Below, one piece after another: positions 3,001 to 63,099 of a stretch of 64,000 bases of DNA (position 1 is the stretch's first letter; the number at the start of each line of letters is the position of its first letter). Made by a program: the position numbers and the translations under genes. The DNA is from Liolophura sinensis (Eukaryota > Mollusca > Polyplacophora > Chitonida > Chitonidae), in NCBI RefSeq assembly GCF_032854445.1, contig NC_088295.1, positions 85,170,644 to 85,234,643 of the forward strand. The letters run 5' to 3'. Below the pieces are notes generated by a model, which saw only the letters and a program-made list of their open reading frames with translations, was not told the DNA's origin and did no database searches.

Positions 3001-5646
3001 CCCTGTCACATTTCTGCTAATAGTTAAACTGTAGAGCTTTAATCGGATCTATATTAGCGAATTACCAATTGTGTGATTTTTAAACGCAAATAGTCGTTAG
3101 AATAATTTACTTTTTGGAGATTTAAAAATTTGGTTTTCCTGTAAACTTTTAAATGGAAAATATCGCGACGTGATTTGTAAGTAAACGTGTTTAAATCCGC
3201 CCGTATTTCATCCAATCCGATAGTTACGATCATATTTATAGCATGGGAATTAAGTTATGAGTTAAGGTAAATTAGTAACAATTTTGTGTTAGTCCGCCGG
3301 TGGTCTTGTCACCGTGCGAGATCTTCCCCGCGCGGGAACGATAGCATTCAGATAGAGATGAAGGAACAACTTCAAGGTTCGGCAGATTAATAGCTAATTA
3401 TTACACCTGGTTTGCCTGTAAATTGAGGAGCCGTCTGCTAGACCTGTCAGGCCCGATCACTAGCCTCCCCGAGCCTCCCTATACCTGACAGTTGGCCGGC
3501 CTTTGTGTCCCGGGACTACATGGGAAGGCTGCACTATAATGTGGCCCTGATATCGCTGCTCTCTATCCCCTCGGCCAGCCCAGCCGGTACGGTCCCCCCG
3601 CTGTGAGCCTGCCACCTTGAAAACCAACAGAACTCAGCCATGCGTGGTCACTGGGATCCGCCATTGCCCTCGGCTCACAGCGCTTTTTCTGCCTTTTTGT
3701 CATATCAGTCAAATATTTGTATTAGCAGTTAGTGTAGAACGGATTCTAAGGATCTATCACGATGCACGCTAAAGAACCCTTTGTCAAAACGGAGAAAATA
3801 GATATTACAGAACGTCACCACATCGACGCTTATCCAGTGCTGTTCAAAAAACAATATATGTAAACAAACAAGGAAATAATTCGGCGGATATCACTATTAA
3901 ATAAACACTATCGGGATCAGTTTCTGGGGCTGATGGTATATCACTACTATTATTGCATGCATTCAAAGAGTTTCTATACGATACTTGGGACAGAATTCTT
4001 TGCTTGTGAGAATGACCAGAGCTTGTGTTCACGGGAGACTCATTACCCATAAATAACGCTAAGAATGGGACTTTTGTGAATTAACGCATATCCTGAACAG
4101 TTCATGCGAAAGTCGGTAGTCGTCAGTATAATACATCAATAACGAAAATGTTAAAAACATGTAGTCTGTTAAACTTGGTGTGTAAGCGATTTAGCAGTAT
4201 GTTAAAACAGTGGCGTGAGAACTAGGGATGGATATAGGAACAAGAAACTGTAGACAGGTGAAAAGAAAATGGAACTTGGTGAGCGAGTTTGGCCAAGGCG
4301 CCGTATCGGCAGATGTCACCGACACCATGGCCTGATAGGGAACACAATAGTGGGCTGCAGAGACTCGTAGGGTGAAGCACCGCCCTCCGCCTTGTCTCCC
4401 GCCCTCATATTCTGCCTCCACGGAGGAACCTATGCGCCAGCAATGAAAGCCTAACCAGTATCTAATAGCCCTCTCCCGGGAACTCCAACGGTGCCGGCGA
4501 ACACACGACGCCGCAAAATTACCTGAAATACCTTTTCTTGGTCCCGGGTTTAAGTGGCTGCTGACTGCCATTCGACGGGAGATGTTGTCATCATCATTTT
4601 TTAAAACAAATCACAACTATCGTTTTCGACGAAGGGAGAAGAAGCCAGAAAGACACTTACTGGTCTTGTCTGTGGTACAAACACACGTAGTACAGAGGCG
4701 TCCATTCCTCAAACTGTTACCGCCAATTAGGAATTAAACGCGCGATGATGCGATTTGCAGGTCCTCTCATGACATCCCAGCATTTCTTTTTGCCATTTTT
4801 AAAAATTTGTTCTAGGTATTTGCACAACACCTAATTTTAATAATTCAGAAAACTGGCTATTTCTAATAATTTCTATGTAATATTTACACCAAGGCGTGGG
4901 AACAGGCAGTGGCATACCAAAAACCGCAAGGCCGATTTCTAAAACAACGTCAAACATAAATCACCAAATAAGTAAGAAGATATATTACATGGTATGGAAT
5001 TAGGAAACCACTTCTCAGTGTTACCAGAAAGACCCAAGGAATGTTTTAGGCGTGTAAATCAGTATTCAAATCGTGTACTGTTCTAGTTTATGAATGATAT
5101 AGTTAATCAAAATACTATCTCTTTTGCGCATTATTTGTAATTGTTCATATACTCGAAGTGGTGATTTTATTCAGTATGATGCAAACGCCGTCCCTGGCTC
5201 TAAGCTGTACGAAATTAGTCACAGTTAGGAAGCAGGGCGCTTTTGATTCTGAACTCTTTAGGGGAATTATAAGTGTTTTTTTTTTCATTTTACAGGTGAA
5301 GATCTGGTTCCAAAACAGGCGATCAAAGTACAAGAAAATTATGAAACAACAACAGAACAACCCTGCCGCACCTGGTCAGCAACCTAACAGCCATCACTCT
5401 CCTACAGGACCCCAACAACAGAATCAGGCTCCTTCCCAGCAACCTCCTCAACCTCACACCCCTCAACACCAACAGGGCAGTCCAGTGGCACCCCAGCAGG
5501 CACCACCCATGCTTCCCCCACCTTCGTCAGTCACACCACCCTCCACATGGGCAGATATGTCTGCTACAGCACAAACTAACTCCTACATGTCACAATATCC
5601 CTGGTACACACAGAACGCCATGCAGCAACAGTCGTTGTTAACATAA
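45..5646 (+). CDS. Dlx: Distal-less (Dlx) homeobox transcription factor, last two coding exons; 5' end outside the window
   Basis: Sequence-specific nuclear transcription factor of the ANTP class, NKL subclass; Dlx proteins pattern appendages, anterior neural tissue and epidermis. Exon A is 45-229 (acceptor AG at 43-44, donor GTAAGT at 230). Exon B is 5296-5646 (acceptor TTTTACAG, stop TAA 5644-5646). Both join in phase 0. The homeodomain begins at [10 protein letters not shown] (codon 98) and is split between positions 44 and 45: exon A ends LGLTQTQ and exon B begins [15 protein letters not shown]48, Q50, N51 and R53 are present. Exon B then encodes a Gln/Pro/His-rich tail ending in the Dlx-like STWADMS, YPWY and QQSLLT segments, 116 residues from the splice to the stop. 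The N-terminal half and promoter lie upstream of base 1. Identity rests on near-complete agreement with the Dlx homeodomain, so confidence is high. The 5-kb intron between the exons is noncoding. Confidence 0.97.
3290..3700. promoter_or_regulatory. candidate intronic Dlx enhancer
   Basis: A relatively GC-rich island inside the Dlx intron. It contains GATTAA (3385-3390), TAATTA (3395-3400) and CACCTG (3404-3409) in a 25-bp span, then about 280 bp of non-repetitive, GC-rich sequence. TAATTA is the core site bound by Q50 homeodomains including Dlx. There is no open frame of note. Function is inferred only from location and composition. Confidence 0.25.
4970..5190 (+). repeat. diverged dispersed repeat, family R1, copy 1
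   Basis: This stretch aligns by eye with 9785-10030 and, over its middle, with 42845-42955. The shared core is GAATGTTYTAGGC followed by ATCAGTATTCAAATCGTGTAC. Copies 1 and 2 also share a downstream block (TTGCGC...CATATAYYCRARGTGGYGAT). The copies are old and gapped, and no terminal structure or ORF is seen. The element type is unknown. Confidence 0.6.
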
Positions 5647-16260: not shown

Positions 16261-16487
16261 TTATTTTTATTTGATTAGTGTTTTACGCCGTATTCAAGAA
16301 TATTTCACTTATACGACGGCATCCAGCATTATGGTGGAAGGAAACCGGACAGACCCCGGGAAACCCCAAGACCATGTGCAGGTTGATGACAGAACTTCCT
16401 ACCTACGAATGGAGAGGATGCCAGCATGAGCTGGACTCACAGCGACAGCATTGGCGGGTGTCTCTGTCATGGGTCATTGTGCCGCGA
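16261..16487 (-). mobile_element. tRNA-derived SINE, reverse copy
   Basis: Read on the plus strand it starts with the tail TTTGATTAGTGTTTTACGCC. It runs through the GACGGCATCCAGCATTATGG body and the TGAGCTGGACTCACAGCGACA region (reversed box B) to GGGTCATTGTGCCGCGAC. Near full length and diverged. Confidence 0.85.
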
Positions 16488-22400: not shown

Positions 22401-22750
22401 GCCCACAAAACGTCATCGCTTTAGGACTGGAATGAATAATATGGACTACACAGCTTAGGCCGAAATTGCTCTAGGCGTCATCAGTCTGTAGTCTCAAGCT
22501 GCATGACTTCCCATCAATTATATAAGCATAAACAGAACAGAAAAATAAATAAGAATCTAAATTATAACAGCGTATAAAATAAAGTAAGAATCAGATTCAA
22601 AATCGAAGAGAGCGCTATAGTTGTTTTCAACGTCATATTTAAAGAGACACACAACATAAAAATGAAGCATCAGTATAGAAAAACCATGTATTAAAATGTA
22701 TATGTCGGGTACCGTAAACGTAGTTACTGTTTATTAATATGGTAATGACT
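16488..22750. other. gene-poor intergenic region
   Basis: There are no confident genes. Open frames of 60-130 codons occur but lack domains, and several use non-ATG starts. A CpG-rich block at about 20915-21160 includes a 69-base exon-like segment reported separately. No repeat families shared with other parts of the window were recognised here. Confidence 0.5.
20980..21048 (+). other. exon-like segment, weak
   Basis: A pyrimidine-rich stretch ending in TTTTATTGTAG (AG at 20978-20979) precedes 69 bases that are open for exactly 23 codons in phase 0. They end CAG and are followed by GTGAGT (21049-21054). The peptide starts EVYGEHEKAISCERV. I recognise no family and found no partner exons nearby, and the reverse strand is also open. 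It may be a chance arrangement in a CpG-rich block. Confidence 0.15.
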
Positions 22751-22945
22751 GTGCGTGGCTGTGTGTGGCCGTGTGTTGCTGCGTGTGGCTATGCGTGGCT
22801 GTGTGTGACTGTGTGTGACTGTGCGTGGCTGTGTGTGACTGTGTGTGGCTGTGTGTCGCTGTTCGTGGGTACGTGTGGCTGTGCGTGGCTATGCGTGGCT
22901 GTGTGGCTGTGCGTGTGTGTGTGTGTGGCTGTGCGTGGCTGTGTT
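22751..22945 (+). repeat. 10-bp minisatellite
   Basis: Roughly 19 imperfect copies of a decamer close to GTGTGTGGCT / GTGCGTGGCT, with a few indels near the end. Because 10 is not a multiple of 3, an artificial Cys/Val/Trp-rich ORF spans it; that is not a gene. Confidence 0.9.
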
Positions 22946-30861: not shown

Positions 30862-30867
30862 TTTATT
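30862..30867 (-). terminator. candidate poly(A) signal (AATAAA) of the secreted peptide gene
   Basis: TTTATT on the plus strand reads AATAAA on the minus strand, about 340 bp after the stop codon at 31205. It is the first canonical signal I noticed downstream. Confidence 0.4.
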
Positions 30868-31204: not shown

Positions 31205-32012
31205 CTATCGTCGACCAGGGACCCCAGGCTTACTACATTGACAGGCGTCTCCTCCCATCTGTATATAACACAGGTAATCGCATATATCGGTCGTGTAGGC
31301 TGGCTTGGTTGTCGTCCACGGTAACTTACCGAAGCCCGGGTCAGAGTCCATGTAGCTTACTAAAAGTAAATATCAAGATTGAATAGTTTGGAACACTGAA
31401 AAGTTATTTTTATCGAATAAATTGATCAGCATTCATCACCTAGTTAAACGGACCCTGGGATACACAACATACAATCGACCGTGTACAAATATTTTATTAC
31501 ACACATTGTGTACCACTGATACTGTGTTATTGTGGTGGTGTTACACAAATTACAAATTTTGTGAACTGCTGCACAGCTTTCAGTTTTAGAGAGTTTTGAC
31601 GCCTAGATCTATCACATGGATGTCGACATAAAAACATACAAGCAATGGCAATTCTAAAAGTCCCTAAAAGTGAAGAACTGTGTCAGTCTTTAGCGGGTTC
31701 AAGTTCAAACCCATGAGGTTTTTGCGCATACATAAGTGTATTTTGTGCTAGGACCATGAACTTTCTATTTTCAACGGAGTGCAGATTTATTCTCACTATT
31801 CTAATGAATACATACATGCACATTTAATATTTGCACCCTTATCGATCGTGCAATATGTATTTACCTGATGCAACCTTAGAGCAGAAACATCCGGGCACTT
31901 TTAAACCAAACGCACAGAAAGCATGACAGTTGCTTTCATCTTGGTTACTCGCTCCTGTAATGGCTGTGAAGTACAGTGTACACACGGAGAGGAATACAAG
32001 TGATTTCATCAT
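31205..32012 (-). CDS. secreted two-module cysteine peptide precursor, two coding exons
   Basis: Predicted 100-residue precursor; I do not recognise a family. Coding exon 1 is 32012-31865 (ATG ATG start, donor GTAAAT at 31864). Coding exon 2 is 31359-31205 (acceptor TACTTTTAG, stop TAG). They join in phase 1 and 148+155 bases make exactly 101 codons. Residues 1-20 form a signal peptide (MMKSLVFLSVCTLYFTAITG). Exon 1 then carries C-x3-C-x8-C-x-C-S-K (CHAFC ... CFCSK). Exon 2 carries a Thr/Pro-rich linker and a second module with identical spacing (CDYLC ... CQCSK). It ends VPGRR-stop, a dibasic-plus-Gly amidation signal. No internal dibasic site is seen. The mature product would be secreted, about 78 residues, with four likely disulfides. 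Its role could be hormone, defence or other. The matching cysteine spacing in two exons argues strongly against chance. Confidence 0.82.
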
Positions 32013-32650
32013 GACCAGTTTCCTGAATCAAAACAGATTAAACTATTTCAGAACAACCATTTAGAGCTGGAGAATAGTTCTTGCTCGTGACTTCATATTA
32101 AATCAGTAAATGTTCCCTTCGTGAAACCAGTACTATTGACAATTGGTCTTATCAGTGGTGCATTTTGTGCAGTATAATGAAAGAATAGTTTTGAATGCAT
32201 ATGTGTTCCTTTCGTTTTTTAAATATGTGCCAAAATTCTGTTCGACTTGTTTGTATGGCCAATAAATTGTTTTGCGCATTTACATTAGATCCAAAGTCTT
32301 TTTCTTTCAAGTAATTATCAGGTTTTGAAAGTAAAATGATTTTTCACATTTCAGAAATGAGTGTAACAAAAGTGCACACGTATCTCTGACCGCCTGCAAT
32401 CATTGTTATTCTCAATCAGATACTTACAAAAGCGCTATGAATAGTGTTTATTGTATTTATGTACATTTTCTTAAATATATAATTATATGCCGATAAAGTA
32501 AAATGAAGCATTCTGCTGGGATATCTGCAAAATTTAATCAGATGCAATCACTCAACAATGAGCCCTTGGTCATGTTACCAATATTTTAAATAGAATTTTA
32601 AGCAAGAGTATGAATTCAAAAATGCATGAAAGCCACTATGACAGACTTAC

Positions 32651-32797
32651 CTGCCGAAGTCGTTCTGCTTTACCGTTGTGTTTTATAATGTGGTCAATTA
32701 CGTCCGTATAACGTGGGCTAGTCTGTATGGACAGCAGATGTAAGCAGATGAACGCTACTGTCACACTTACGGCTTACAAGCATTATTACACCTACAG
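32651..32797 (-). other. likely 5' UTR exon of the secreted peptide gene
   Basis: On the minus strand CGGCAG|GTAAGT gives a strong donor at 32650. An acceptor (TTGATTCAG, about 32030) lies just before the two ATGs of the coding exon. The upstream limit is set only by a TATA box at 32830-32823, placing transcription start near 32797. The exon would be noncoding apart from a short upstream ORF. Confidence 0.45.
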
Positions 32798-32822: not shown

Positions 32823-32830
32823 TTTTTATA
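32823..32830 (-). promoter_or_regulatory. candidate TATA box of the secreted peptide gene
   Basis: TATAAAAA on the minus strand, about 180 bp upstream of the predicted first-exon donor. A second TATAAAA at 32687-32681 is too close to that donor to leave a usable exon. Confidence 0.35.
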
Positions 32831-36321: not shown

Positions 36322-38650
36322 TTACTGTTTAGGAATCCAATCTCTGAATATGGTTCCATTTGCTACCGGTGCCATGGCTCCCCGTTGTTTGATATGATTA
36401 AAGAGTTGTGTGGAGATGTACGGTACTCTTGCGAAGGAGATGGGAGTGACGGTGGAATGCCAGGGAGTGAGGCCGCAACTGTGGGAGAGGAGTGGCGCGG
36501 AGGGAGGCTGCAAGCAACCCAGAGAACCGAAACCAGGGTGCCAAAATCCTAACTCATTCGCGTACTTTCTCTTCCACTTTGTTCGTCTGTTTTGAAACCA
36601 TATCTTCACCTAAAGAAAAATGAAATAGATTTGTTATTTAATTAACTAATTCATTTTTCATAATCTATGGCTGGAGGGGAAGCTAGTGCCCCTTGTAAGA
36701 CACATGTATCTGGTGACATATTGGCAAATCCAATCCTTTTTTATGAATTGTACCACAGAACCTCATTTCTGAATAGCATGTTGTCCCAAGTTAAATACTT
36801 CAGACCATTAAGCCAGTAAGAGCCCATAGATGATGGTTGATTGTTGGTATCTGGTATACCAAAAACTAAAAACCTGCAATTTTATAGCTATGTACGTGCG
36901 TAAAAGGGACATGGCGGTTTTCTTTTTTTAACAGTATGCTTTTTATTTTTTCTATTTCTGCAGTCGGAGTTTTCTGACTTTTAAGAAAAACTCCCACAAA
37001 AAGAGATCGGGTTGGAGTTTTTCTTTTTTTTTCTTGCAGGCGAAAAAAAAAAAAGAAAACCTCCCAGAAAAATGTCTCGGACTGCCGAGATAATCAGCCA
37101 ATCTCTGCTTTCGTCTGCTTAAAAAAAAACCCAACTCGATCTCTTTTTTCTGGGAGTTTTTCTCTTTTGGGGGTGGGGGGTGGGGGAAGGGTTGCTTAAA
37201 AAAATAAATAAAAAAGAAAACAGTCATCTCCCTTTTACGCCTCCGTAGTTATGCATGTCATCATGATTCCTACATGTACGTATAAAAACCCAAATTTATA
37301 CAGTGCAACGGGTGGAAAAACTTGGAGTTTCATGAACAGTTTTGAAAGACAAGATGCAAAAGTTTATGAAATTCGTTGCCTTTTCTGATAAAGGCGTCTT
37401 TCATTATTTCATTAAAAGTTTTTAAAACGCTGATAATGAATATATGCTCTATGCTTTGCAATCGATCTCAAAAATGACATTCATCTACAATATCCGGTGC
37501 TAGAAATGAAAATCTTTGTCACCGCAATACAAAAAATTACACGTAAACATGCACCGCTACTTAGAGAGTCATGTGTTATACGATTGAGTAACGATGAATA
37601 ACCGACATACCTGAGTCTCAGTGAGTCCCAGGGCTTGTGATAACTCCACCCTCCTCGACACCGAAAGATATTTGTTCACCTGGAATTCCCTCTCCAACTC
37701 CTTCACCTGGTCAGCAGTGAAGGCTGTTCGAGGACGCTTCCGGCGGTCACCTGTAAAGGAGAGTTTCCAGTTTAGCCAGTAGCCACATACAAGAGAATTA
37801 CCCAATAAAAGCTGTTTGATTTTAATATACGTAAAGGTATCTCGTCAATATCACGAGAAGATTTCCAAGAAAACAAATACAATCTAGCGAAATTAATACA
37901 ACCAACTTGCTATCCATAATGTTTGCTGGTCTTATTTTGCATGGAAATATTTGCCTATTAAGGCGAAATATATAGGCCTACTCTTGGAATTAGTCCTTCC
38001 ATAACTGAACTTGAAGTTTGCACATTAAACTTTACATTTAACTGCATCATTGTTTAACCAAAAACCTTACCGGCACTGAAACGTTCAGAGGTTTAACACT
38101 TAACGGGTTTGTTGTTGGCACAACGGTTTTACTGACCTGAATGAAAGTTTGTATCCGGTGGCTGGTTGACGTTAGCATTATTTGGCGCTTCTGGCGAGCT
38201 GCTAGAAGGCTGTGCCGATGTGTCCGATACAATTAGATAAGGGCTACAAGGTCTGTCCGTGCACGAAACTCTGTCCGACATCGGCAACGTGACGTCACCC
38301 AGGATGTTTCTGATAGAAAACGTGTGATTTGGTACTCTCTGAGCAACATGACGTGAGGGACTTCCAGCTTTGGGGAACACGTGTCGCATAGAGAGATCAG
38401 ATACGGCGTGGTTACCTGGAGGTGATGGGCTGGTTGTCTCCCCAGTACAGAACGCTGAGACAACGGTCTCATCGTCGCGAGATCTGAGATTGGAACCTCC
38501 GGCTGGATTCTGTGATGAGCATGATAGCATGAATTCAGAATCGTTCGCAGTGATTCTCTCAGTTGATTCTGAGTAAGTTACGGAAGGTACTGCTTCACAG
38601 CTGTCACAGGATGTTGGTCTAGTCCCCAGATGTGCTACAGACTCGGCCAT
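36322..38650 (-). CDS. Nedx: NK-like homeobox transcription factor, probable Nedx (next to Distal-less)
   Basis: Nuclear transcription factor, predicted 313 aa in three exons: 38650-38137, 37750-37611 and 36609-36322. Donors are GTCAGT and GTATGT, acceptors CTTTACAG and TTCTTTAG; phases 1 then 0, with frames closing exactly. Residues 110-118 (TFSIRNILG) form an eh1/TN motif that recruits Groucho/TLE corepressors. The homeodomain (residues 175-234) starts RKRPRTAFTADQVKELE, is split at position 44/45 and continues [16 protein letters not shown], with Q50 and N51. The combination KRPRTAF...NKYLSVSRR...[20 protein letters not shown] matches what I recall of the Nedx family (Drosophila CG13424/lms), and the gene lies about 31 kb from Dlx as the family name implies. 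Other NKL families (Msx, Barh, Hhex, Vent) fit less well. The homeobox call is certain; the subfamily is likely. Confidence 0.88.
36905..37240. mobile_element. foldback (long imperfect palindrome) in the Nedx intron
   Basis: About 335 bp that fold back on themselves. The arm near 36983-37021 (GAAAAACTCCCACAAAAAGA and GATCGGGTTGGAG) pairs with 37127-37163. Outer A/T-rich arms (GGTTTTCTTTTTTTAACAG at 36912 against AAAAAAGAAAACAGTC near 37214) also pair. The centre is TCTCGG-ACTG-CCGAGA near 37075-37090. There is no ORF. It resembles a non-autonomous foldback or MITE insertion. Confidence 0.7.
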
Positions 38651-40787: not shown

Positions 40788-42152
40788 TCATGTGGCTTGC
40801 TTACTTTTGTGTTCTCTTCCTGCAGTGGCAAATTCAGAGCGTGTGGTTAAAATGAGGAATATATTTAAAAGAATGGCACACGCAGTGAGTCCACACATCA
40901 TGACGAAGTTCCACTTCACGCAGATAAGTCCATAGCAGTTTGTGGTATCAGGATCCGTGATGAAGCTTTGATAAATCATCCCGTAACCCGCCTGGACCCC
41001 TATACCCGCTAGTGCCGCCAGCAGAATCACTATTCCCCAGTTCCTGCCAAAATCACGCAGCCCGAAATATTCGCTGATTACGGCGGGAACAAAAGTCCAT
41101 AAACTACCTATGGATATTCCGCTGAGGATGTTGGCTAGGATAAAGGCCCAGGATCTGTCTGCCAAAAAGATGCACATGAACTGGGAAGCGGCAAACACCA
41201 CATTTGTGATGAGCAGGATGTTGATACGGGCAAACCTCTCTTTTATGTGATCCGACAGGGGACCAAGTGTGAACCTGGCCAAAATACCAGTCACTGGGAT
41301 AAGTGCTGTCACCACAGAATCGATTTTGGACAACCCCACAGATTTTGTCACCACAGTCACGTTATTGACAAACGCTAGGCCTACAACAGAGGCAAAAATG
41401 AACATCCATAGTAAATACTGGAACTTCCAGTCAAGAAACAGTAACAGAATTTGTTTCATTTCGCTTGGCTTAGAAGACTTATTCGTTACACCTTTACTGT
41501 CTGGCACATCAGCATTAATACTGGCATTGTCGTCAAAAGATGAGTATGCCTGAGCGTCACTAGCTGATGCCCCGATGACTGTCTTTTCGCATTCCTCTGC
41601 CTGTACAGTTCCACTCTTGGAGACATTGTTAGAAATATTCTCTGAATCCGGAGGATAAATCCTGAGAAACAAAACACAGAGGAAGTTTGCGATAGCAAAC
41701 CATATAGCGAATAAAAGCATAAATCCAGCCACGTTTTGGTTTTGTTGATCCTCCGCGTGCCCATTTGTGTAGAATTCCGAGTAGACTAAAACGAAGATTG
41801 CAGGGCTTCCCCCAAAACAGGCATCCAGCAAGCCGATGATCTTTGCCCGGTGCTTATCCCTGAAGTTCCTTACGTTTGTCCCCAGTGCCGACATGTACGT
41901 GTAAAGGGACCCATGGCCTTTGGAATAAACACAAAGTGATCAACACAATTGGTTCACAATTAGATTTCACTAAATTGCTTTGAAATCACGCATTTCTCAA
42001 ATTAACGCAAAGCACTTCAATACCCAATAAAGCACTTGAAACCGCTTGGCTTCAAAGTCAGGAACAAGACATGATACAGCAAGATAATTCGACCATAAAA
42101 AATTCGATCATAAATCAAAAGAACCATTTTAAGGAAATTCAAAAAGAGTTAG

Positions 42153-42231
<79 letters not shown>

Positions 42232-43245
42232 ACCATACAATATACAATCGTGCATTGTATATCTGTAAATACAGAGTCATGTAGAACATATAGGATCATG
42301 CTTTCCACAAGTGTTGAAACAAAGCACCTTCATGTCCTAAAATTGTATGCATTTACTTTATTCAAGTCGTCTTCTTACCAATAATAAAAAAGTACAAAGC
42401 CATCAACGGATTTCTAGTGCTATAGAATGTCGGATTCTTGAAGGAACTCCAAATGAGTAAATAGCCGGCAGACGTGCTGAGTAACCCCACGATCGACGTC
42501 AGGATAGGGCCGAACTTGTCGAATACCATTCCTGCTGGAAGGCCCACGCCAAGACCCAGGTTCACCATGGACGCCAACAGCAGAACTGCCAATGGCAAAA
42601 CAATTCTTTACAGTAAAATAAAATCCATAGCACAATACATGTTCTTAAAAATTGTAATCGTTAATTATTTCATCGTGGGTCGGTGTTCAGGCGTCACATC
42701 AGACATTTGTATACCAATCGTCAACCATAATTGACGTTCTAGATCAATAATCCCAAATAAAGATCAATAAAGATTTCTAAAACACCGGTCATCACAAACC
42801 GCCTAGTAACTGAGGTAGTATAAACGGTCAGAATTCAGGACGCAGTCATGCATGTAAAGAAATGCAGTCAATGGTTTTTAATAATGCTGGAAACATGTAA
42901 CGAATGTTCTAGGCACCTAAATTTAATCAGTATTCGAATTGTCACCCTTTCATACTTCTGGATCGTGGCGGGAGAGGAGGGCAAACCGGGCGTATAAAGT
43001 CCAAGGAAACAACTGTAACTTCGTAACTCGTGGCAGTAGGCCGCAGCTGTAAATAATCATTCCATAATTAGGTGATATATAAACTTACCTTCAGTCTGCG
43101 TGTAGTTAAAGGTGGCTTTTATAGCATTTGAATACACATTAAAGGCGAATATTGAGCCTGCGGAGAATTTGGCAAGGCAACCGACGACGAGCACCAGTGC
43201 CCGAAGCAGGTTGGCTTTGGATGGTGGACGCCACGTACTCGCCAT
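40788..43245 (-). CDS. major facilitator superfamily transporter, nodulin-like type
   Basis: Predicted 497-aa multi-pass membrane transporter. Exons are 43245-43089, 42585-42379 and 41917-40788; donors GTAAGT and GTAAGA, acceptors TTGGCAG and TCCAAAG, all junctions phase 1. The start is ATG 43245 (MASTWRPPSK): an in-frame stop lies upstream and earlier in-frame starts are non-ATG. TM1 is in exon 1 (GCLAKFSAGSIFAFNVYS). Exon 2 has the YTQTE...NLGLGVGLPAGMVFDKFGP block typical of the Nodulin-like/NFD4 MFS group. Exon 3 holds the remaining helices, a long Ser/Asp-rich central loop (about residues 190-250) and the second-half signature LGPLSDHIKERF. About 12 helices are expected. Substrate is unknown; plant members and yeast Mch1-like proteins are distant relatives. 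Both introns are short, and the one before exon 3 carries an (AT)n tract. Confidence 0.88.
42154..42228. repeat. (AT)n microsatellite
   Basis: About 37 uninterrupted TA dinucleotides in the intron between exons 2 and 3 of the MFS gene. Confidence 0.98.
42845..42955 (+). repeat. diverged dispersed repeat, family R1, copy 3
   Basis: It aligns with the middle of 9785-10030 through TCATGCA, GCAGTCAA, ATGCTGGAAA, ATGTTCTAGGC and ATCAGTATTCGAATTGT. It lies in the first intron of the MFS gene. Confidence 0.5.
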
Positions 43246-48732: not shown

Positions 48733-49527
48733 AGGCACACTGCAGAGGTAAATGTAGCTGAGGCTATGGTTGTTGCGTCCATTGTGACTCGAAATCACTT
48801 ACATCCATGTAGCAGATCAATACCCATCGCTAATAAAAATGTATTGACAGTTTTCATCCCAACTTGGTCAGTTCTTCTCTGTGTAGTCTTATACTAATAA
48901 TATATATGGAAGTCTATGGAAGGTTATGTGAAAGATTAGGAAAACAATCAGGCCTATTCTAACAAGTTTTATTATAACATACATAGGCCTAGCTGATAAT
49001 AAACTATTTCAGTAACATAACACAACGCCGTCTGTATGTGGTTGTATTATGAACAGCCATTTATTCCCCTCTAGTATTAGGGTTACACTTAAAACATATA
49101 CAACTGATTGTGTGAGGCCTCGAGAGTAGCTAATCCTCCATAGGTATAAATGCGCTCAAAATTACTACACATACAAGTCTAAAGCATGTGCAATGCCTAC
49201 AGCATTGTTTGGCGAGATTCGATACATCGCTTTTTTTAAATTTTGTTTCATTGAAAGATGCTTTGTGCAGTGACTATGGGAAGGCAGATCCAGAGCACCT
49301 AATAAACCAATAGGTGAATTGAACCTCATAAAGTAGTAAACTGTGTCCAAAGTGTGGTGAATAAATGAACAGCGATTTACATTCCCCATCACGCATTCAG
49401 GGGAGTTAACTGCTACATGGACATTGTCTTACAGCATTTACTGGTACCGTGTAAGAGTGCAAGGTGCGTGGTCTAAGTAACAGTAACACCAGTTACAGCA
49501 AAAGGAAGAGAAACGTTCAGTATAACC
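48733..49527. other. upstream region of the LDH2-family gene
   Basis: This should contain the promoter and 5' UTR of the plus-strand dehydrogenase. No TATA box close to 49528 stands out and no other gene is seen. Confidence 0.45.

Positions 49528-63099
<13,572 letters not shown>

Follow-up and report, generated by a model that had tools for sequence, protein, structure and literature searches.

Does this stretch of chiton DNA genuinely encode a secreted peptide that contains two cysteine modules, and what might such a peptide do? Within the window, by which we mean the whole stretch of 64,000 nucleotides analyzed (C1:85170644-85234643), two minus-strand exons join in phase 1 to give 303 nucleotides in frame and 100 residues, as established by direct reading and by script. 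The initial annotation, which had proposed these exons together with a signal-like N-terminus, is confirmed on these points, and we hold it very probable that the gene is real. Its elements are listed in order of transcription:

32825..32830, minus strand: TATA-box-like sequence about 0.8 kb 5' of the ATG, a possible promoter by sequence match only
32023..32650, minus strand: predicted 5'UTR intron, with 32650 as its first base and the next exon from 32022; from splice scores
31865..32012, minus strand: coding part of exon 1, residues 1-49 and the first base of codon 50, with the ATG at 32012; kept in the related protein P0001
31950..32012, minus strand: signal peptide, residues 1-21, cut at about A21/S22; from a Kyte-Doolittle hydrophobic core
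31875..31928, minus strand: module 1, C-x3-C-x8-C-x-C-S-K, residues 29-46; from sequence, 18/18 residues identical in P0001
31360..31864, minus strand: GT-AG intron of 505 bp, phase 1; from sequence and splice scores
31205..31359, minus strand: exon 2 including the stop codon, the remainder of codon 50 through residue 100; from sequence
31324..31329, minus strand: GTAAGT, a strong donor inside exon 2, possible alternative splicing; from splice score
31229..31282, minus strand: module 2, C-x3-C-x8-C-x-C-S-K, residues 76-93; from sequence, no relative found
31208..31216, minus strand: C-terminal Gly-Arg-Arg just before the stop, a likely amidation signal leaving ...Val-Pro-amide; from sequence
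30862..30867, minus strand: AATAAA, the first AATAAA or ATTAAA 3' of the stop; from sequence

The signal peptide was judged by hydropathy alone and its cut site was placed by eye. Splice sites were scored with an approximate metazoan matrix set up from general knowledge, and percentiles are relative to minus-strand sites. The donor at 31864 ranks at the 99.4th percentile among 3913 minus-strand GTs and the acceptor before 31359 at the 84.6th among 3311 minus-strand AGs, the latter being only moderate in strength. A 5'UTR intron upstream of the ATG is plausible, its donor at 32650 scoring at the 99.9th and its acceptor before 32022 at the 99.1th percentile; of the junction originally given for it, the last exon base 32651 was right, whereas ~32030 lay about eight bases off and is replaced by 32022. 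Together with the TATA-like box and the AATAAA, this intron would make for a complete-looking predicted gene. Within exon 2, the internal donor at 31329 reaches the 99.5th percentile on the same approximate matrix and is paired with a weak acceptor before 31258; splicing between the two, read by hand, would deprive module 2 of its first two cysteines and shift the frame, a possible alternative splicing that would remove this module. The intron between the coding exons harbors a segment (31477-31575) that matches, at 76-80%, four further sites in the genome, which appears to be a short dispersed repeat, its four DNA matches looking repeat-like rather than exonic.

Both modules share one spacing and a trailing Ser-Lys, beginning at residues 29 and 76 as first described, and the claim that such a pair is very unlikely by chance withstood simulation. 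In six frames of the window, C-x3-C-x8-C-x-C occurs twice, as modules 1 and 2 only, against an expectation per window of 0.083 (first-order Markov model, 60 simulated sequences of 64 kb each) or 0.094 (a larger simulation, 83 modules in 113,280,000 positions); the count is post hoc, with a wide margin over expectation. A module with Ser-Lys arises at ~9e-9 per position, a rough figure from one simulated event. At the simulated rate, a module would turn up by chance somewhere in the frame of exon 2 with a probability of ~2.6e-5, and one with Ser-Lys with a probability of ~3e-7, a figure that rests on the same kind of single event. A flanking control of 180 kb, reaching 90 kb to either side of the window in 18 stretches of 10 kb, contained one bare module on the minus strand (L011:8499) vs ~0.26 expected from the larger-simulation rate; it has neither Ser-Lys nor a signal-like start and probably reflects chance. 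No tandem paralogue, in the form of a further module with Ser-Lys, was found in these 180 kb. Lone bare modules do arise by chance, whereas a Ser-Lys pair in one gene frame should not. Loosening the middle loop to C-x3-C-x6-12-C-x-C gave four flanking matches (L011 twice, L013 and L014), taken as chance, with the exact spacing found only at L011:8499. The loose pattern matched 13 times within the window vs 1.03 expected; 11 of the 13 fall in Cys-rich sequence, one stretch near 1565 and another near 22750, and were set aside; the other two are the modules.

Conservation was found for exon 1. Among 5.8 billion proteins searched, one is related to the peptide, namely P0001 of 70 aa (E = 1.1e-19; two candidates scored). 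Identity is complete over residues 1-14 (14/14), drops to 2/9 over residues 15-23, is complete again over residues 24-49 (26/26), and the similarity breaks up past the predicted exon 1 donor. Selection on a real exon gives just such a pattern, with the module held rigid, looser sequence where the signal peptide is cut and similarity that breaks off at the splice junction. P0001 itself would represent exon 1 extended into non-coding DNA on both sides, and its residues before Met-Met would fit AG-G at a matching 5'UTR acceptor, if its Arg codon is AGG. The cysteines of module 1 are thus intact in one other source, and it is on this single sequence that the conservation of exon 1 rests; a profile built from exon 1 and P0001 recovered only P0001 again. 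For exon 2, no homologue appeared among the same 5.8 billion proteins, a set from which short ORFs may be missing. The check on cysteine conservation therefore lent no support to module 2, for which the single argument is its match to module 1. A genome search for a second copy (609,464,459 bases in 632 contigs; E <= 10; two candidates scored) returned only the gene's own two exons. Within the reach of that search, P0001 is consequently not a second copy from this assembly, where the gene is apparently single-copy.

An origin of the two modules by exon duplication, as suggested initially, is unsupported. Outside the cysteines and Ser-Lys, the modules have 0 of 12 residues in common, 13 of 42 nucleotides match outside the Cys codons, and a permutation test on their residual similarity gave p = 0.14. 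Their Ser codons, TCT and AGT, belong to different families that lie two base changes apart. Moreover, the exons lack the symmetry of copies, as exon 1 bears the signal peptide and exon 2 ends in the stop codon. Possibly the modules arrived at one spacing independently, or a duplication is too old to see.

Further features were recorded across the window, in which Rfam (gathering thresholds) and tRNA scans found nothing. Two homeodomain pieces at 1-373 and 5107-5643 (plus strand) belong to what we take to be a Dlx-like gene; past the homeodomain, 5347-5643 (plus strand) has no Pfam match. A second homeobox gene (36325-38650, minus strand) has its homeodomain split over exons 37572-37844 and 36325-36609, and an open frame upstream contains the stretch TFSIRNIL; 37572-37844 matches the Pfam Homeodomain at E 8.6e-15, and its closest PDB sequences are engrailed, then GBX and others. 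From its position near Dlx, this gene may be Nedx. Beyond it lie a major facilitator transporter gene (40791-42607, minus strand; Pfam MFS_1 E 1.6e-18 for 40791-41939), an exon of the malate/L-lactate dehydrogenase family (49477-49725, plus strand; Ldh_2 E 8.4e-11) and a small heat shock protein (56999-57511, minus strand; HSP20 domain E 1.5e-19, open over 171 residues). A sequence dispersed on both strands (25573, 50444, 52031 and 54530, with other frames near 16275, 40067 and 48421, located by eye) has a translation resembling [20 protein letters not shown] and is probably a SINE-like repeat. Open frames at 51301-52055 (plus strand) resemble, by eye, pieces of reverse transcriptase, and repetitive Cys/Trp/Val-rich open frames from tandem repeats were likewise seen at 22750-22900 (plus strand) and 52382-52720.

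The precursor of the two-module peptide ends in Gly-Arg-Arg, a feature that the initial annotation does not mention and that is the usual amidation signal in peptide processing. This terminal GRR holds the only dibasic pair of the precursor, and none lies between the modules, which makes a single chain of ~76 residues with a C-terminal amide the likely product. The trimmed product is acidic, with a computed pI of 4.9 and a charge of about -2.5 at pH 7, and with GRR left untrimmed it is near neutral (computed pI 6.5); the trimmed value counts against an ordinary cationic antimicrobial peptide. As the reduced free acid, the trimmed chain has a computed mass of 8158.2 Da, which four disulfides and an amide would bring to an average of about 8149 Da. 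AlphaFold models of low confidence place a helix at 24-34 of exon 2 (mean pLDDT 57.5, single sequence) and at 5-17 of exon 1 (mean pLDDT 65.3, two sequences), in both cases over C-x3-C, with neither helix nor strand over C-x-C. Structure prediction, which had been proposed for probing the module fold, hence weakly suggests a helix over each C-x3-C; it yields no strand, at low pLDDT, and the exon 1 model found no match in a PDB fold search.

In line with the initial annotation, the two-module peptide could be placed in no named family: neither Pfam (E <= 1), NCBIfam (E <= 10) nor PDB sequences (E <= 10) gave a match. Its status as undescribed holds as far as the titles and abstract openings listed extend, with most subscription journals outside them; among these, no description of the peptide was found, and a literature search on such cysteine spacings gave no match.

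Likenesses to known peptides exist at the level of the single module. J-superfamily conotoxins, cone-snail venom peptides grouped by a signal sequence particular to them, have C-x3-C and C-x-C in the order seen in the chiton modules, with a slightly longer middle loop. These peptides (type member pl14a) are described as highly helical, with a C-C-C-C type XIV framework and a C-terminal amide (PMC4278219, PMC11355921), and pl14a as 25 residues with one four-cysteine unit, other members being similar in length (PMC4278219). The chiton peptide is likewise molluscan and has four-cysteine units, with helix and amide predicted. Each module fits the type XIV framework, but the full predicted product contains eight cysteines in all and, at ~76 residues with two modules, differs from the short mature J-superfamily form unless it is cut at Gly-Lys as considered below; we do not claim it as a member. 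Vil14a-type conotoxins share the type XIV framework, with a structure like CS-alpha/alpha scorpion toxins and I-IV, II-III connectivity (PMC4278219); the chiton C-x-C stretch would be ill suited to a two-helix hairpin. C-x3-C and C-x-C, common to both chiton modules, are named as key determinants of the cysteine-stabilised (CS-alpha-beta) fold (PMC5234102), represented by invertebrate and fungal defensins and scorpion K-channel toxins. The complete six-cysteine framework, C...C-x3-C...C...C-x-C, is however absent, as the chiton modules have four cysteines and are without Cys 1 and Cys 4. Of the helix and strand of this fold, the models predict the helix over C-x3-C but no strand over C-x-C, at low pLDDT.

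Among molluscan precursors, PXRX proneuropeptides of conchiferans have four conserved cysteines with two likely disulfides, form a cluster that is solely conchiferan and, two exceptions aside, carry P[FM]R[WY] (PMC6425005). The chiton modules have four cysteines each, and P[FM]R[WY] is absent by eye from the 100 residues. Of the general traits of neuropeptide and peptide hormone precursors, the chiton precursor has a signal peptide, judged from the hydropathy of its N-terminus, and a basic site as terminal GRR, but no dibasic pair between its modules. A 2019 survey of molluscan neuropeptides notes that systematic studies were still lacking for five classes including chitons, of which the survey itself sampled some transcriptomes (PMC6425005).

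The reading that we put forward, and on which our own judgement is nearly evenly balanced, is that of a real chiton gene for a secreted, amidated chain of two cystine-stabilised helical modules that would serve as a ligand outside the cell. Once the signal peptide, some 21 residues long, is removed, a ~76-residue product would remain, in which a Thr/Pro-rich linker joins the modules. In each, the C-x3-C helix would be pinned by two disulfides, expected as I-III and II-IV, to the extended C-x-C, forming a minimal cystine-stabilised helix, while GRR would be trimmed and its Gly turned into the amide. The modules would most likely remain on one chain, there being no dibasic site between them. This scaffold of two minimal cystine-stabilised helices is moderately supported, given the predicted C-x3-C helices, the motifs of the cysteine-stabilised fold and the precedent of J-superfamily conotoxins. 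We infer a function as extracellular signal or as modulator of a channel or receptor; the product would most likely be a two-headed ligand, be it a peptide hormone, a neuropeptide or an endogenous modulator of some channel or receptor, its target being presumed. Internal dibasic sites are missing here, which would be unusual for a multi-peptide neuropeptide precursor and counts against a signalling role.

Other fates of the precursor have to be weighed against a single two-module chain. Cleavage at the single Gly-Lys between the modules (residues 60-61), a second Gly-basic site, would release two separate amidated four-cysteine peptides, each half containing one module and its own amidation signal. 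A single Lys without a basic residue at -4, -6 or -8, as found here, is nevertheless a poor convertase site, and we regard this outcome as unlikely. A little less probable again is that exon 2 is normally spliced at 31329, leaving module 2 out of the principal product and module 1 as the only one in use. The 99.5th-percentile score of this donor and the restriction of the known relative to exon 1 fit such splicing; the recurrence of the identical spacing in exon 2's frame, at odds with chance at ~2.6e-5 or, with Ser-Lys, ~3e-7 (one simulated event), does not, nor does the way in which this frame ends, in an amidation-type signal followed by the stop.

The nature of the product can also be read differently. 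A defensin-like role in host defence would suit a secreted, cysteine-rich peptide carrying C-x3-C and C-x-C, core motifs of the defensins' cysteine-stabilised fold (PMC5234102), yet each module is without two of the six defensin cysteines, the trimmed product is acidic (about -2.5 at pH 7) and the genome search found no second copy; we give it a low probability. A role in structure or matrix, or as a small inhibitor released from the cell, we rate similarly low: secretion, the Thr/Pro-rich linker and the absence of internal dibasic sites agree with it, whereas the peptide is short and non-repetitive and its C-terminal amidation signal suggests a regulated secretory product. That the open frames are accidental and no gene exists is very improbable. 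The exons are short and the 180-kb flanks do contain a lone bare module (L011:8499), but exon 1 recurs in P0001 at E = 1.1e-19 with conservation ending near the predicted donor, a pattern by which chance appears largely refuted, and 0.08-0.09 modules are expected in 64 kb where two occur, both with Ser-Lys.

If the secreted two-module ligand is taken further, it may belong to a group of peptide hormones or endogenous channel modulators restricted to the chiton lineage (Aculifera), with two minimal cystine-stabilised helices on one amidated chain serving as a natural bivalent ligand; this we consider possible, while leaning against it. Molluscs commonly have orphan peptides that are secreted and rich in cysteine, and the locus would add one more such gene, of modest novelty and without amounting to a system of a new kind; its wider impact hinges on expression and on whether other species have module 2. 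As a secreted peptide whose first exon is conserved, with a signal for amidation and a clear idea of its fold, the product is a concrete candidate for a chiton signal. If the lineage-restricted reading is true, a four-cysteine scaffold of the type found in cone snail venom would also serve endogenous signalling in a mollusc only distantly related to cone snails.
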